IMG/VR virus record: IMGVR_UViG_3300036770_004502
Location: 1 to 26,622 of that record
DNA from: a virus
Reading direction: 5' to 3' (one strand)
Length of the DNA stretch: 26,622 nucleotides
Of the stretch, positions 11,407 to 20,458 are shown in pieces. Positions within the stretch are counted from its first letter, which is position 1. Each line of letters begins with the position of its first letter. A program made the translations under genes and the position numbers. The notes below the pieces were generated by a model. It saw only the letters and a program-made list of their open reading frames with translations, was not told the origin of the DNA and searched no databases.

Positions 11407-12201
11407 TTAGAACAAGCCTGCCGGTTCGGCCTGGATATCCCAGGAGAAGATCAGCACCTCGCGGGCTTCCGAGCCCTTGCCTCCGCCCACCGTGTAGGTG
11501 ATGTCGGTGCTCTCGATGTGGTATCGGCCAAACACACGGCGGATGTCGGGGTGGTCATTCAGGCTGACGATGGCCTTGCCCTTGATCTGCCCCAGCACCT
11601 CGGCCATCTGCTCGTATTGCTCGAAGCCAAACGGCACGCCGTAGCCCTCGGTCTGCCAGTACGGCGGATCGCAGTAGAACAGCGTGTGCGGGCGATCGTA
11701 GCGGCGGAAACAGTCCTGCCAGGTCAGGTGCTCGATGTAGGTGTTGCTCAGCCGCAGGTGTGCAGCCGAAAGCGACTCCTCGATCCGCAGCAGGTTAAGC
11801 CCAGGCGGCTGAGTGGTGGCGGTGCCGTAGCTCTGGCCGTCTACTCGCCCGCCGAAGGCCGACTGCTGCAGGTAGTAGAACCGGGCCGCGCGCTGGATGT
11901 CGGTCAGGGTCTCCGGCCGGGTCTCCTGCAGCCACTTGAACACCTGGCGACTGCTCAGTGCCCATTTGAACTGGCGGACGAACTCTTCCAGGTGGTGCTG
12001 TACGACCCGGTACAGGTTGACCAGGTCGCCGTTGACGTCATTCAGCACCTCCACCTCCGCCGGCACTGGCCGCAGGAAGTACAGCGCGGCACCTCCGGCG
12101 AACGGCTCGACGTAGCAGGAGTGACGAGGAAACAGCGGGAAGATGCGGTCGGCTAGACGCCGTTTGCCCCCTATCCAGGGGATGATGGGTTGGGCCTGCA
12201 T
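11407..12201 (-). CDS. Adenine-specific DNA methyltransferase (Dam/D12 class)
   Basis: A 264-residue N6-adenine methyltransferase of the D12 class. Motifs in order: motif X PWIGGKRRL (8-16), SAM-binding motif I VEPFAGGAAL (31-40), catalytic DPPY (178-181). The start is the ATG at 12201, with GGAGG 4 bases upstream; the open frame continues upstream to 12282 but only this start has a good site and gives motif X at the expected place. It overlaps the 3' end of com by 31 bases, as com and mom overlap in Mu. It probably methylates phage DNA to evade host restriction, replacing the role of Mom. Target sequence cannot be read from the protein. Its setting between tail genes marks the cassette as an accessory insertion. 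Confidence 0.9.
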   Translation of the reverse strand: MQAQPIIPWIGGKRRLADRIFPLFPRHSCYVEPFAGGAALYFLRPVPAEVEVLNDVNGDLVNLYRVVQHHLEEFVRQFKWALSSRQVFKWLQETRPETLTDIQRAARFYYLQQSAFGGRVDGQSYGTATTQPPGLNLLRIEESLSAAHLRLSNTYIEHLTWQDCFRRYDRPHTLFYCDPPYWQTEGYGVPFGFEQYEQMAEVLGQIKGKAIVSLNDHPDIRRVFGRYHIESTDITYTVGGGKGSEAREVLIFSWDIQAEPAGLF

Positions 12202-12356
12202 GATGCCTCCGTGCGGGCGCTCGATGGCGCTTCGGGGAGGCTCTCGGCCTTCAGGTGATTCAAGGTCCGGCAGCGCGGACACTTGATCTGTAACGAGTCA
12301 AATCGGCTGGCTCTGGCCAGCAGGCGGCCACAGCCGCCACAACGAATGTCTTTCAC
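12171..12356 (-). CDS. com: Com-like zinc-binding translational regulator
   Basis: A 61-residue protein (Mu Com is of nearly the same length, about 62) with the Com fingerprint: IRCGGCGRLL at the N-terminus and IKCPRCRTLN, giving two CxxC pairs (C6/C9 and C26/C29) that bind zinc. The start chosen is the GTG at 12356, which puts the first residues KDIRC where Mu Com has KSIRC; an upstream in-frame ATG at 12431 would add an unconserved leader. In Mu, Com binds the mom mRNA and opens a hairpin that hides its ribosome binding site. Here the gene overlaps the adenine methyltransferase by 31 bases, so the same control of that gene is expected. Confidence 0.88.
   Translation of the reverse strand: MKDIRCGGCGRLLARASRFDSLQIKCPRCRTLNHLKAESLPEAPSSARTEASCRPNPSSPG
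12205..12241 (-). promoter_or_regulatory. Hairpin that could hide the methyltransferase ribosome binding site
   Basis: On the minus strand GCCTCC (12241-12236) is perfectly complementary to GGAGGC (12210-12205), which is the Shine-Dalgarno sequence of the methyltransferase starting at 12201. The 25-base loop contains a GCGC-N6-GCGC inner pairing. This is the layout of the translation-inhibiting stem of Mu mom, the target of Com. The pairing is seen directly; the regulatory role is inferred from the com gene that overlaps it. Confidence 0.6.
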
Positions 12357-12393
12357 TCTCGGCAACACCCTTTCCAATTTGCTAGGCTCGCCG

Positions 12394-12409
12394 CGCTCAC
12401 GCGTGAGCG
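12394..12409. promoter_or_regulatory. 16-bp perfect palindrome upstream of com
   Basis: CGCTCACGCGTGAGCG is perfectly self-complementary and lies about 40 bases upstream of the com GTG. Mu mom/com is switched on by the late activator C and controlled by host factors at its promoter, so an operator here is plausible. No convincing -10/-35 pair can be assigned. Confidence 0.5.
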
Positions 12410-12450
12410 GAGGGCCTTGGCTGGCTGGCACTGGTGTTGCCTGTTCGGCG

Positions 12451-18552: not shown

Positions 18553-19110
18553 TCAGCGAGTGGGGAAAAGATACCTCATGGCGATTCCGGCAATGGCATA
18601 TCCATCCGATTCACTCACGCCCAGGAACGGACGCGCCGGGATGCGTATCTGGTAGGCGCCAATCGTCACCCACTGGGCGAAGTTGCTCTTGCGCTTGCTG
18701 ACAAAGCTGTTGCCCACCTCGCCATTCTTGCCCTGGCGGAAGTAGGCCTGCTGACTACGCGGGGCCACGTCGATGGTGCCGCCGAACTGGTGGATGGCTG
18801 CATAGGGTCGGTTGCTGCCGAACAGCAGCTCGTCACCGTTGACCTGGTAGCGCAGCGTGTTCTTCAGGTAGCCATCGAGCACCAGGATCTTGTCGCCATT
18901 CTTGCGCTTGCGCCGCTGGTAGCGTGGCGAAAGGGCCTGCCAGGGTGTGCCTTCTGGTGAGGTCTGGCTGGCGAAGCGCTGGTCATGGGCGATCATCAGG
19001 TACTCGCCGATATCGTGCAGCAAGGGCTCTGGCCGCCCCATGGCCTGGGCGACCTCGTTGATCACCGCCAGCGCGGCGGTGGCGTCAAACTCAAGCGTGG
19101 CGCCTGCCAT
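18553..19110 (-). CDS. Virion morphogenesis protein (Mu gpG-like)
   Basis: A 185-residue protein of the phage virion morphogenesis (gpG/tail completion) family. The family pattern is clear: helix then RFASQTSPEGTPWQALSPRY (45-64), LVLDGYLKNTLRY (77-89) and FGSNRPYAAIHQFGG (97-111). In this family the role is in joining head and tail. AGGAG is well placed before the ATG. It is separated from the gpF-like gene by 100 bases with a hairpin and from the protease by 214 bases, so it may be a short unit of its own. Confidence 0.9.
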   Translation of the reverse strand: MAGATLEFDATAALAVINEVAQAMGRPEPLLHDIGEYLMIAHDQRFASQTSPEGTPWQALSPRYQRRKRKNGDKILVLDGYLKNTLRYQVNGDELLFGSNRPYAAIHQFGGTIDVAPRSQQAYFRQGKNGEVGNSFVSKRKSNFAQWVTIGAYQIRIPARPFLGVSESDGYAIAGIAMRYLFPTR

Positions 19111-19186
19111 GTTCTGCTCCTATACTGGGGACAACCTGATCGAGTGAGAGAGCCCCTGCCAGGGCCTCCGACCCTACACTCGCGGG

Positions 19187-19212
19187 AAACCCGGTGTGGC
19201 AGCGCCGGGTTT
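19187..19212. terminator. Hairpin at the end of the gpF-like gene
   Basis: AAACCCGG (19187-19194) and CCGGGTTT (19205-19212) form a perfect 8-bp stem with a 10-base loop that includes part of the gpF-like stop codon. On the minus strand only three T residues follow, so it is a weak terminator or attenuator separating the F-like and G-like genes. Confidence 0.5.
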
Positions 19213-20458
19213 AGTCTTGCCTGCGATAAAGCCTGACACCCTGGCGTACTGTCTCCAGGTACTCGTCCTGGTGAGGCGGAAAAGTCGTTACGCCCAACCA
19301 GCCGTCGCTACCCACTTCAAACACCGCAACGGCGGGCACCTGCGAACCCTCCACCATGAATCGCGCCACATAGCGCCTGCGCACCACAGCCTGGCCAACA
19401 GCGCCCAGCCACTCCAGGCGCGTCCATACCTCATCGGGGGCTTTCAGGGCATCGGCAAGCAGGCGCAGCCAGCGGCCCCGTCCGTTCTTGTTGGCCTTCA
19501 GCTCGCCACTCTTGCGCTCAGTGAAAAGCGCTTTGCCCATCACCAAACGCTCGCCCAGCACATCACGGAATACCGCAGGGCGATCCAGGGTGGCGCCGAA
19601 ATCAGCCAGGTAGCTGCTGGCATAGGCTTCGTCAGTCAGCCCCTCGGGCAGCAAGCGCTCGGCCGGCATAACCCTGGGCACTGGCAGCGGATCGCCGGCC
19701 AGACGACTGGGCAGGCCCGGCGCGGAGGCCGGGATCATTTCCTCATCTGGCCGTGGGCGCGGCACCGCGCTCTCCAGCCTGGCCCGGCCTGGGGTGTACT
19801 CGAAACCGGGGTCAATCCCCTGCGGCACCGTCACCGTGCGCGGCCCGTTGGCGCTGCGTTGGCCGATGGTGCGTTCTTCCCAAATGATTGGCGGCGCGGT
19901 ATCCGGCCCGGTCTTGCCCATGCGCACCAGGTCGTCATAGCTCAGGGCCCGCACGCTGCATTGGCAGCCCCAAGCGTTGATCGGGAAGTGGTACTGCCAC
20001 CAGGGATCGTCCCAGCGCAGCACCATGCCGTTCCAGGCCTCATGCTCCGGGCGGGGGTGCTCCACTGCATCGCTGTGGATGTACTGCCAGTAAGGCCGCT
20101 GCTCGCGCACCGCCATCAGCTGCTCATACCGGCCAGCCATGTAGCTGCTCTGCAGGTTGGTGTCGTAGATCACCCGCGAGCGCCAGTTGCGGCCGCCGTT
20201 GTAGCTCCAGCCATACTTGGCCACGATCGTGTCGAAGTCGCGGCGGAAGTCAGCCAGGGTGCGGCCGTCCTCGATAGCCCTCTGCACGGCCTGGCGGAAG
20301 TCGCCCACCAGATCGCTACGGTTGGCGCCTGCGACCATGAAAGCCCAGTCATGCTCACGGCCGTACACATCCGTCCAGCCCTCGGTGGGCAGGTTGAGCT
20401 TGCGGCGCAGGAACTCGTTCTGCTCGCGGAACGGCAGCGAAACCGCGCTAACGGCCAC
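19211..20458 (-). CDS. Minor head protein (Mu gpF-like) with C-terminal PBECR2-like nuclease domain
   Basis: A 415-residue protein. Residues about 1-175 are the Mu F/SPP1 gp7-like minor head part: YDTNLQSSYMAGRYEQ (98-113), RPEHEAWNGMVL (136-147) and FPINAWGCQCSVRAL (158-172) with C165 and C167. Residues 175-280 are a Pro-rich linker. Residues about 285-413 (VFRDVLGERLVMGKALFTER, ANKNGRGRWLRLLADALKAP, VARFMVE, WLGVTTFPP) resemble the PBECR2 family, predicted RNase-like domains of the barnase/EndoU/colicin E5-RelE group that often occur fused to phage head proteins. It overlaps the portal gene by 11 bases. It may be packaged in the capsid; activity is not proven. Confidence 0.85.
   Translation of the reverse strand: MAVSAVSLPFREQNEFLRRKLNLPTEGWTDVYGREHDWAFMVAGANRSDLVGDFRQAVQRAIEDGRTLADFRRDFDTIVAKYGWSYNGGRNWRSRVIYDTNLQSSYMAGRYEQLMAVREQRPYWQYIHSDAVEHPRPEHEAWNGMVLRWDDPWWQYHFPINAWGCQCSVRALSYDDLVRMGKTGPDTAPPIIWEERTIGQRSANGPRTVTVPQGIDPGFEYTPGRARLESAVPRPRPDEEMIPASAPGLPSRLAGDPLPVPRVMPAERLLPEGLTDEAYASSYLADFGATLDRPAVFRDVLGERLVMGKALFTERKSGELKANKNGRGRWLRLLADALKAPDEVWTRLEWLGAVGQAVVRRRYVARFMVEGSQVPAVAVFEVGSDGWLGVTTFPPHQDEYLETVRQGVRLYRRQD

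Follow-up and report, generated by a model that had tools for sequence, protein, structure and literature searches.

Known type III toxin-antitoxin (TA) systems mostly consist of repeated RNA units located upstream of a ToxN-family toxin, and their toxins both cleave and are inhibited by their own RNA. As for minor head proteins of phages, we know of no RNase domain or RNA partner in either SPP1 gp7 or 80alpha gp44. The former, a studied MuF protein, reaches the procapsid through targeting by the portal (PMC6316719), and the latter is an ejection protein (PMC7290940). PBECR domains were named by Iyer et al. (2017; PMC5512222), whose account of these families describes their fusion to MuF, Mu gp30 included, and names as catalytic residues a His/Arg in the N-terminal helix and a Thr/Ser in strand 4. 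The MuF-PBECR2 fusion is already published; the RNA that we found encoded beside the gene is the new and unexpected part.

In this study, we analyzed a viral record of 26.6 kb from a Mu-like phage (the window, that is, the whole stretch of 26,622 nucleotides). Its gpF-like minor head protein gene (F; 19211..20458, minus strand, GTG start) encodes 415 amino acids, in which a Phage_Mu_F core (PF04233, residues 54-169; 19952..20299, minus strand; Pfam, E 9.8e-14) is followed by a Pro-rich linker (approximately residues 224-262) and a C-terminal PBECR2 domain (PF18810, residues 284-412; 19223..19609, minus strand). The PBECR2 profile matched with an E value of 3.3e-29 and 102 bits against a gathering cut-off of 27.1, and these two families were the only Pfam matches of the protein at E up to 1. 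In addition, the whole protein was covered by PHROG 220, annotated as 'minor head protein and DNA pilot'. A sequence-only reading of this stretch had described the fusion of a gpF-like core, a Pro-rich linker and a C-terminal domain, which was confirmed by the Pfam matches of both domains and by the visible linker; the interval that it assigned to the domain (19211-19610, residues 283-415) agreed with the profile boundaries, and the family name that it gave proved to be correct. Mean column identity was 0.65-0.66 in the linker and about 0.8 in the core, and pairwise dN/dS values against the nearest relatives (0.03-0.13) indicated that the PBECR2 domain is under purifying selection. Mu-like phages, those of Pseudomonas among them, carry close relatives of the F protein. 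The cryo-EM study of JBD30 (PMC11445458) was considered as a source for the F protein and set aside, because its 'minor capsid protein' is an outer decoration protein. Pfam placed a Mu-type portal protein gene (PF06074; 20448..22334, minus strand) upstream of F and a gpG/Phage_tail_S gene (G; 18553..19110, minus strand) after it. Elsewhere in the window (11407-12431), a DNA adenine methylase-like ORF adjoins a short ORF with a zinc finger that is similar to Mu Com; as far as translations read by eye can tell, they likely form a DNA-modification module.

The sequence-only reading had also proposed a barnase/EndoU/RelE-like fold for the C-terminal domain, with structure prediction of residues 280-415 as a check. 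An AlphaFold model of residues 262-415, built from 21 sequences, was confident (pLDDT 90.6, pTM 0.86) and contained a helix (324-339), four strands (343-351, 356-369, 376-383 and 386-392), a second helix (397-404) and a final strand (408-412). This order of elements, an N-terminal helix, a four-stranded meander, a helix and a strand, is the published order of the BECR core. On the other hand, Foldseek and VIA searches of the PDB with models of 154 and 108 residues returned no significant match and none to BECR nucleases, and comparison of sequence profiles of the domain with PDB chains gave nothing useful. Among the weak matches to viral models in BFVD, several (TM-score 0.43-0.50) were phage polyvalent proteins. 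The order of elements in the confident model is compatible with the proposed fold, for which the searches gave no convincing counterpart among solved BECR nucleases; by fold, the domain is a candidate member of the BECR group.

The predicted active site comprises an N-terminal-helix part with K321, K324 and R327 (codons of residues 321-327, 19478..19498, minus strand) and the strand-4 Thr, T391 (19286..19288, minus strand), and the window protein retains all four residues. Among 149 distinct domains, residue 327 was Arg in 86 and His in 26, residue 391 was Thr or Ser in 124, and both positions were occupied in these ways in 111. K324 and K321 were the best correlates of position 327 among all domain positions (0.88 and 0.85, respectively), and across relatives K321, K324 and R/H327 were lost as a block, with T391 largely accompanying them. 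Seven other residues (P341, E343, W345, R361, Y363, R405 and G407) were invariant, also where the active-site block was lost, so that some lineages have evidently retained the fold after losing the site. A decay of PBECR2 to a mere scaffold in all these phages was considered and dropped, since the block was kept or lost as a unit. Pseudomonas aeruginosa phages such as JBD25 (L064, L013-clade F) have kept the PBECR2 fold, and both the predicted active site and the RNA described below are gone; judged by their residues, JBD25-type F proteins are natural dead versions of the domain.

Between F and G we identified a structured RNA element (19116..19213, minus strand; covariance model R1), which begins in the F stop codon and consists of two hairpins whose loops kiss over 6 bp. 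Hairpin 1 (19188..19211, minus strand) pairs AACCCGG with CCGGGTT around the loop CTGCCA (19197-19202). Hairpin 2 (19136..19185, minus strand) has an inner stem (19162-19165/19152-19155) closing the loop TGGCAG (19156-19161), which is complementary to the loop of hairpin 1. The F-G gap of relatives was conserved at approximately 90-120 nt (97 nt in the window), with the same two-hairpin fold and loops complementary over 6 nt. The window RNA scored 90.6 bits against R1 (E 1.4e-29), a score that is not independent because the window is among the 25 seeds of the model. In the 25-sequence alignment, 93.5% of cells were paired compared with 72% after shuffling, and 23 of 28 base pairs changed on both sides. 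The covariation score was 0.573 compared with 0.187 for shuffled alignments, and slid controls did not exceed 0.11; these controls favor the fold somewhat because this alignment, like that of the second subfamily, was made from sequence and the structure was read off it. The kissing helix was 95% paired, with both-side changes at 6 of 6 pairs, and RNAalifold recovered the nested helices unaided. A second sequence subfamily (15 sequences) had the same architecture (covariation 0.525 versus 0.181 shuffled). Rfam 15 contained no family matching the window at the gathering score and gave only chance-level matches on the element; a likeness of hairpin 1 to FsrA was rejected, being far below the FsrA threshold.

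The RNA was usually located directly upstream of the G ribosome-binding site, and F and G abutted in lineages without it. Intact RNA was also found where an insert separated it from F (L005, L044, L075 and L093) or from G (L161). Extra junction sequence with small ORFs, on either side of the RNA, was seen in these five loci as well as in L146 and L181, and the F-G junction is likely a moron insertion site.

We then compared the occurrence of the RNA with the state of the active site, which was called intact when K324, R/H327 and T/S391 were all present. R1 was applied to 285 loci; a second covariance model, R2, was applied to those left doubtful by R1 and to a sample of the rest. A first automatic count gave 146 loci with an intact site and RNA, 46 with a lost site and no RNA, and none crossed, with ten rows that could not be read automatically. 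Seven of these could later be assigned: four had an intact site and RNA, and three had neither, which raised the totals to 150 and 49 loci, respectively. The remaining three were a truncated locus (L205) and two distant relatives (L232 and L235), in which R1 and R2 found no RNA despite the presence of Arg and Thr; the 122-nt gap of L235 was read as a similar fold. Counts of distinct domains were preferred, because loci overlap in part (the same contig possibly having been fetched twice). With the two distant relatives kept apart, the 149 distinct domains of close relatives comprised 111 intact sites with RNA and 38 lost sites without RNA, and no crossed case; six rows of this count were assigned after the automatic reading. 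RNA was found in none of the 82 F loci without PBECR2. In a near-minimal case, L056 has kept K324 and R327, carries Asn at position 391 and has no RNA, and its near relative L046 keeps both site and RNA.

This association was also followed on trees. A tree of the MuF core contained 88 non-redundant rows, of which 65 had an intact site and 23 a lost one. Both traits changed 12 times on it, always jointly, and all eight of the eight independent pairs on supported branches agreed (p 0.008). A tree of the domain built without the active-site columns showed seven joint changes, only two of which were on well-supported branches; thus, block recombination of the adjacent F C-terminus and RNA may be behind some of the joint changes.

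Records outside the sample followed the same trend. RcapMu, RR1-B, EBPR siphovirus 4 and RcWaterboi (three with alphaproteobacterial hosts and one without a named host) had intact residues and F-G gaps of 92-103 nt. In each gap the first hairpin loop was complementary to a downstream stretch (5, 6, 5 and 7 nt, respectively), with a joint p of 0.0002 by mononucleotide shuffles for loops that were chosen by eye. R1 and R2 gave no detection on these four elements, which form a separate sequence family presumably homologous to the window RNA. In a fifth outside record, MT835710, the site was lost (Ala, Gln, Lys) and the gap was a few nt long. When viral contigs were scanned from the RNA side with a DNA pattern, 34 contigs matched and PBECR2 lay directly upstream in 32 of them; of the other two, one is known to be a PBECR2 contig, truncated in the stretch examined, and one ends just inside an F-like C-terminus. 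A second pattern scan, for the beta-proteobacterial form of the RNA, returned nothing.

In approximately 1,180 genomes searched, the RNA was rare and mostly linked to prophage F genes (L286-L290 and L292). A decayed PBECR2 piece preceded it in L302, and the tails in L300 and L301 were PBECR2-like in our reading. Weak matches of 22.9-28.1 bits (L294-L297) were discarded as lying in coding sequence or being chance-like. Four Pseudomonadaceae genomes (L291, L293, L298 and L299, at about position 1500) carried RNA copies without an adjacent gpF, followed in L291 and L293 by about ten degenerate gpG-start codons, as read by eye. These copies may be left over from prophages or may be RNA elements that stand alone. 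The copy in L293 (1501-1596, minus strand) abuts an upstream array resembling type I-E-like CRISPR repeats, and that in L298 lies near a tRNA gene. A further copy, in L303 (1501-1593, minus strand; 41.7 bits, kissing loop kept), immediately follows a DUF3800 gene (PF12686) in place of gpF, a hint that RNAs of this class may also have other enzymes as partners.

The C-terminal part of F proteins was found to be exchangeable. A shared core was joined to a C-terminus without a PBECR2 match in JBD67-like phages, two Stenotrophomonas phages and Mu, the JBD67 and Stenotrophomonas cores being close ones; some F proteins were short, ending approximately 20 residues after the core, and some relatives had a MuF_C-like or no C-terminal domain. 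Profile comparison revealed no similarity between the PBECR2 domain and the JBD67-type C-terminus. Inside the PBECR2 clade, two of the C-terminal swaps had moderate branch support (87-89); two further apparent swaps (L061 and L198) were discounted, reflecting a contig end and a probably broken frame. The F gene thus shows a feature of MuF polymorphic toxins, namely a packaging-module protein in which the C-terminal domain behind the MuF core can be exchanged. With regard to a small protein immunity ORF directly 3' of F, none was found in the window, where the 97-nt gap is followed by gpG, and in 79 of 86 relatives the F-G gap was at most 131 nt, too short for such an ORF.

Based on its linkage to an intact site, the constant gene order and the absence of a protein immunity gene, the RNA is very likely a dedicated partner of the nuclease. 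We propose, at about even confidence, that the F protein is an RNase of the virion to which the RNA belongs as a dedicated partner, in all likelihood as an antidote that replaces the protein immunity gene in a type III TA-like manner. Within the procapsid, the MuF core of the minor head protein is probably bound to the portal; the C-terminal PBECR2 domain would be a metal-independent endoRNase destined for the next host cell. The folded RNA of about 97 nt, encoded directly 3' in the late transcript, would be the partner of the active nuclease: as an antidote on the same mRNA, it would bind the domain and silence the RNase during virion assembly, and the ejected protein, reaching the cell without the RNA, could then cut host or rival RNA. 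Under this proposal, the PBECR2-bearing F protein would have RNase activity and would be packaged and ejected. Packaging and ejection are plausible by analogy, since the SPP1 portal brings gp7 into the procapsid and 80alpha gp44 acts as an ejection protein. Inhibition, rather than a role of the RNA as substrate or packaged cofactor, was chosen by analogy with type III systems, in which the RNAs likewise depend on pseudoknot contacts, and is what we infer. Counting against the proposal are the fold searches, in which solved structures yielded no BECR match, the possible share of block recombination in the joint changes, the two distant relatives L232 and L235, and the RNA copies that lie apart from F (L291, L293, L298 and L299) or behind the DUF3800 gene (L303). 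A wider generalization appears possible, with the balance tilting slightly against it: a phage toxin class in which a MuF-fused virion RNase is neutralized during assembly by a downstream kissing-hairpin RNA, the solitary genomic copies perhaps serving host or prophage immunity.

Among other explanations, the one that survives best, which we nevertheless consider unlikely, is that the RNA is the substrate: PBECR2 would cut its own late transcript, separating the F and G mRNAs or tuning gpG, and enzyme and site would be lost together. The same association between RNA and intact site fits this scenario, as does the usual position of the RNA directly upstream of the G ribosome-binding site; moreover, type III toxins cut and are inhibited by their RNA, so that substrate and antidote roles are compatible. 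However, the RNA remains intact despite inserts that separate it from G (L161) or from F (L005, L044, L075 and others), lineages without it simply have abutting F and G, and an enzyme that serves nothing but the processing of its own mRNA would be oddly placed in the virion. It is improbable that the RNA is a gpG leader with a cis-regulatory or stability function unrelated to the nuclease, its association with the site having arisen through block recombination of the F C-terminus and the intergenic region. Adjacency and the low support for independent events in the domain tree would agree with such a leader, but the association was without exception in 149 distinct domains and the 12 changes on the core tree were joint, the five outside records agreed, and L056, in which T391 is lost and K324/R327 are kept, has no RNA, in contrast to L046. 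We hold it to be just as improbable that the RNA is a packaging or cargo handle, which would enter the virion attached to the domain and there act as a cofactor or keep the RNase silent until ejection; the association data are compatible with this role, but nothing in this analysis pointed to RNA in the virion. Finally, the least probable alternative, a purely structural or DNA-end-binding role of PBECR2 without catalysis, like that of 80alpha gp44, which binds DNA ends (PMC7290940), would account for the fold kept in lineages without the active site and for relatives with a MuF_C-like or no C-terminal domain, but K321, K324 and R/H327, and for the most part T391 as well, disappear in step with one another and with the RNA, which resembles the loss of an active site and not of a scaffold.

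If the virion RNase with an RNA antidote is correct, capsid-delivered MuF effectors would be joined with RNA antitoxins, a pairing that we did not find in the literature searched; a structured RNA absent from Rfam would gain a likely partner, and the view of PBECR2 as a working nuclease would be supported. Cultured phages would then supply natural active (RcapMu or RcWaterboi) and dead (JBD25) versions, so that the role of the C-terminal part of Mu-type gpF, an old question, would become testable.

Compared with known systems, the F protein of the window belongs to the same PBECR2 family as described by Iyer et al. (2017; PMC5512222), with MuF and a C-terminal predicted BECR RNase, and our suggestion of packaging and injection is the one made there. 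The descriptions of the domains in that study do not mention an RNA partner, which was found here, and lineages that keep the fold without the active site are resolved here in comparison with those descriptions. SPP1 gp7 and 80alpha gp44 are, as here, portal-adjacent minor head proteins (PMC6316719, PMC7290940). MuF polymorphic toxins (Jamet et al., 2017, PMC5576092; Bxa, PMC11699363; Apk2) are likewise encoded in the packaging module, there of temperate phages, and likewise carry a C-terminal effector that can be swapped behind the MuF core; they mostly have small protein immunity genes at the 3' side (PMC5576092, PMC11699363), whereas a structured RNA takes this place in the window. Type III TA systems such as ToxIN, CptIN and TenpIN, as far as their published descriptions cited here go (PMC8860590, PMC5086642, PMC4627078), share an endoribonuclease, here a predicted one, and a co-encoded structured RNA with tertiary pairing. 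The present system is not a type III TA system as defined, since the RNA is a single element downstream of the gene and the toxin is of another family: no RNA repeats lie upstream of the toxin gene, the single element being 3' of F, and no ToxN, CptN or TenpN family matched F in Pfam at E up to 1. In place of these, one RNA follows the gene of a predicted BECR nuclease inside an operon of virion genes, and its tertiary pairing is a kissing hairpin, in contrast with the H-type pseudoknot of type III TA systems.
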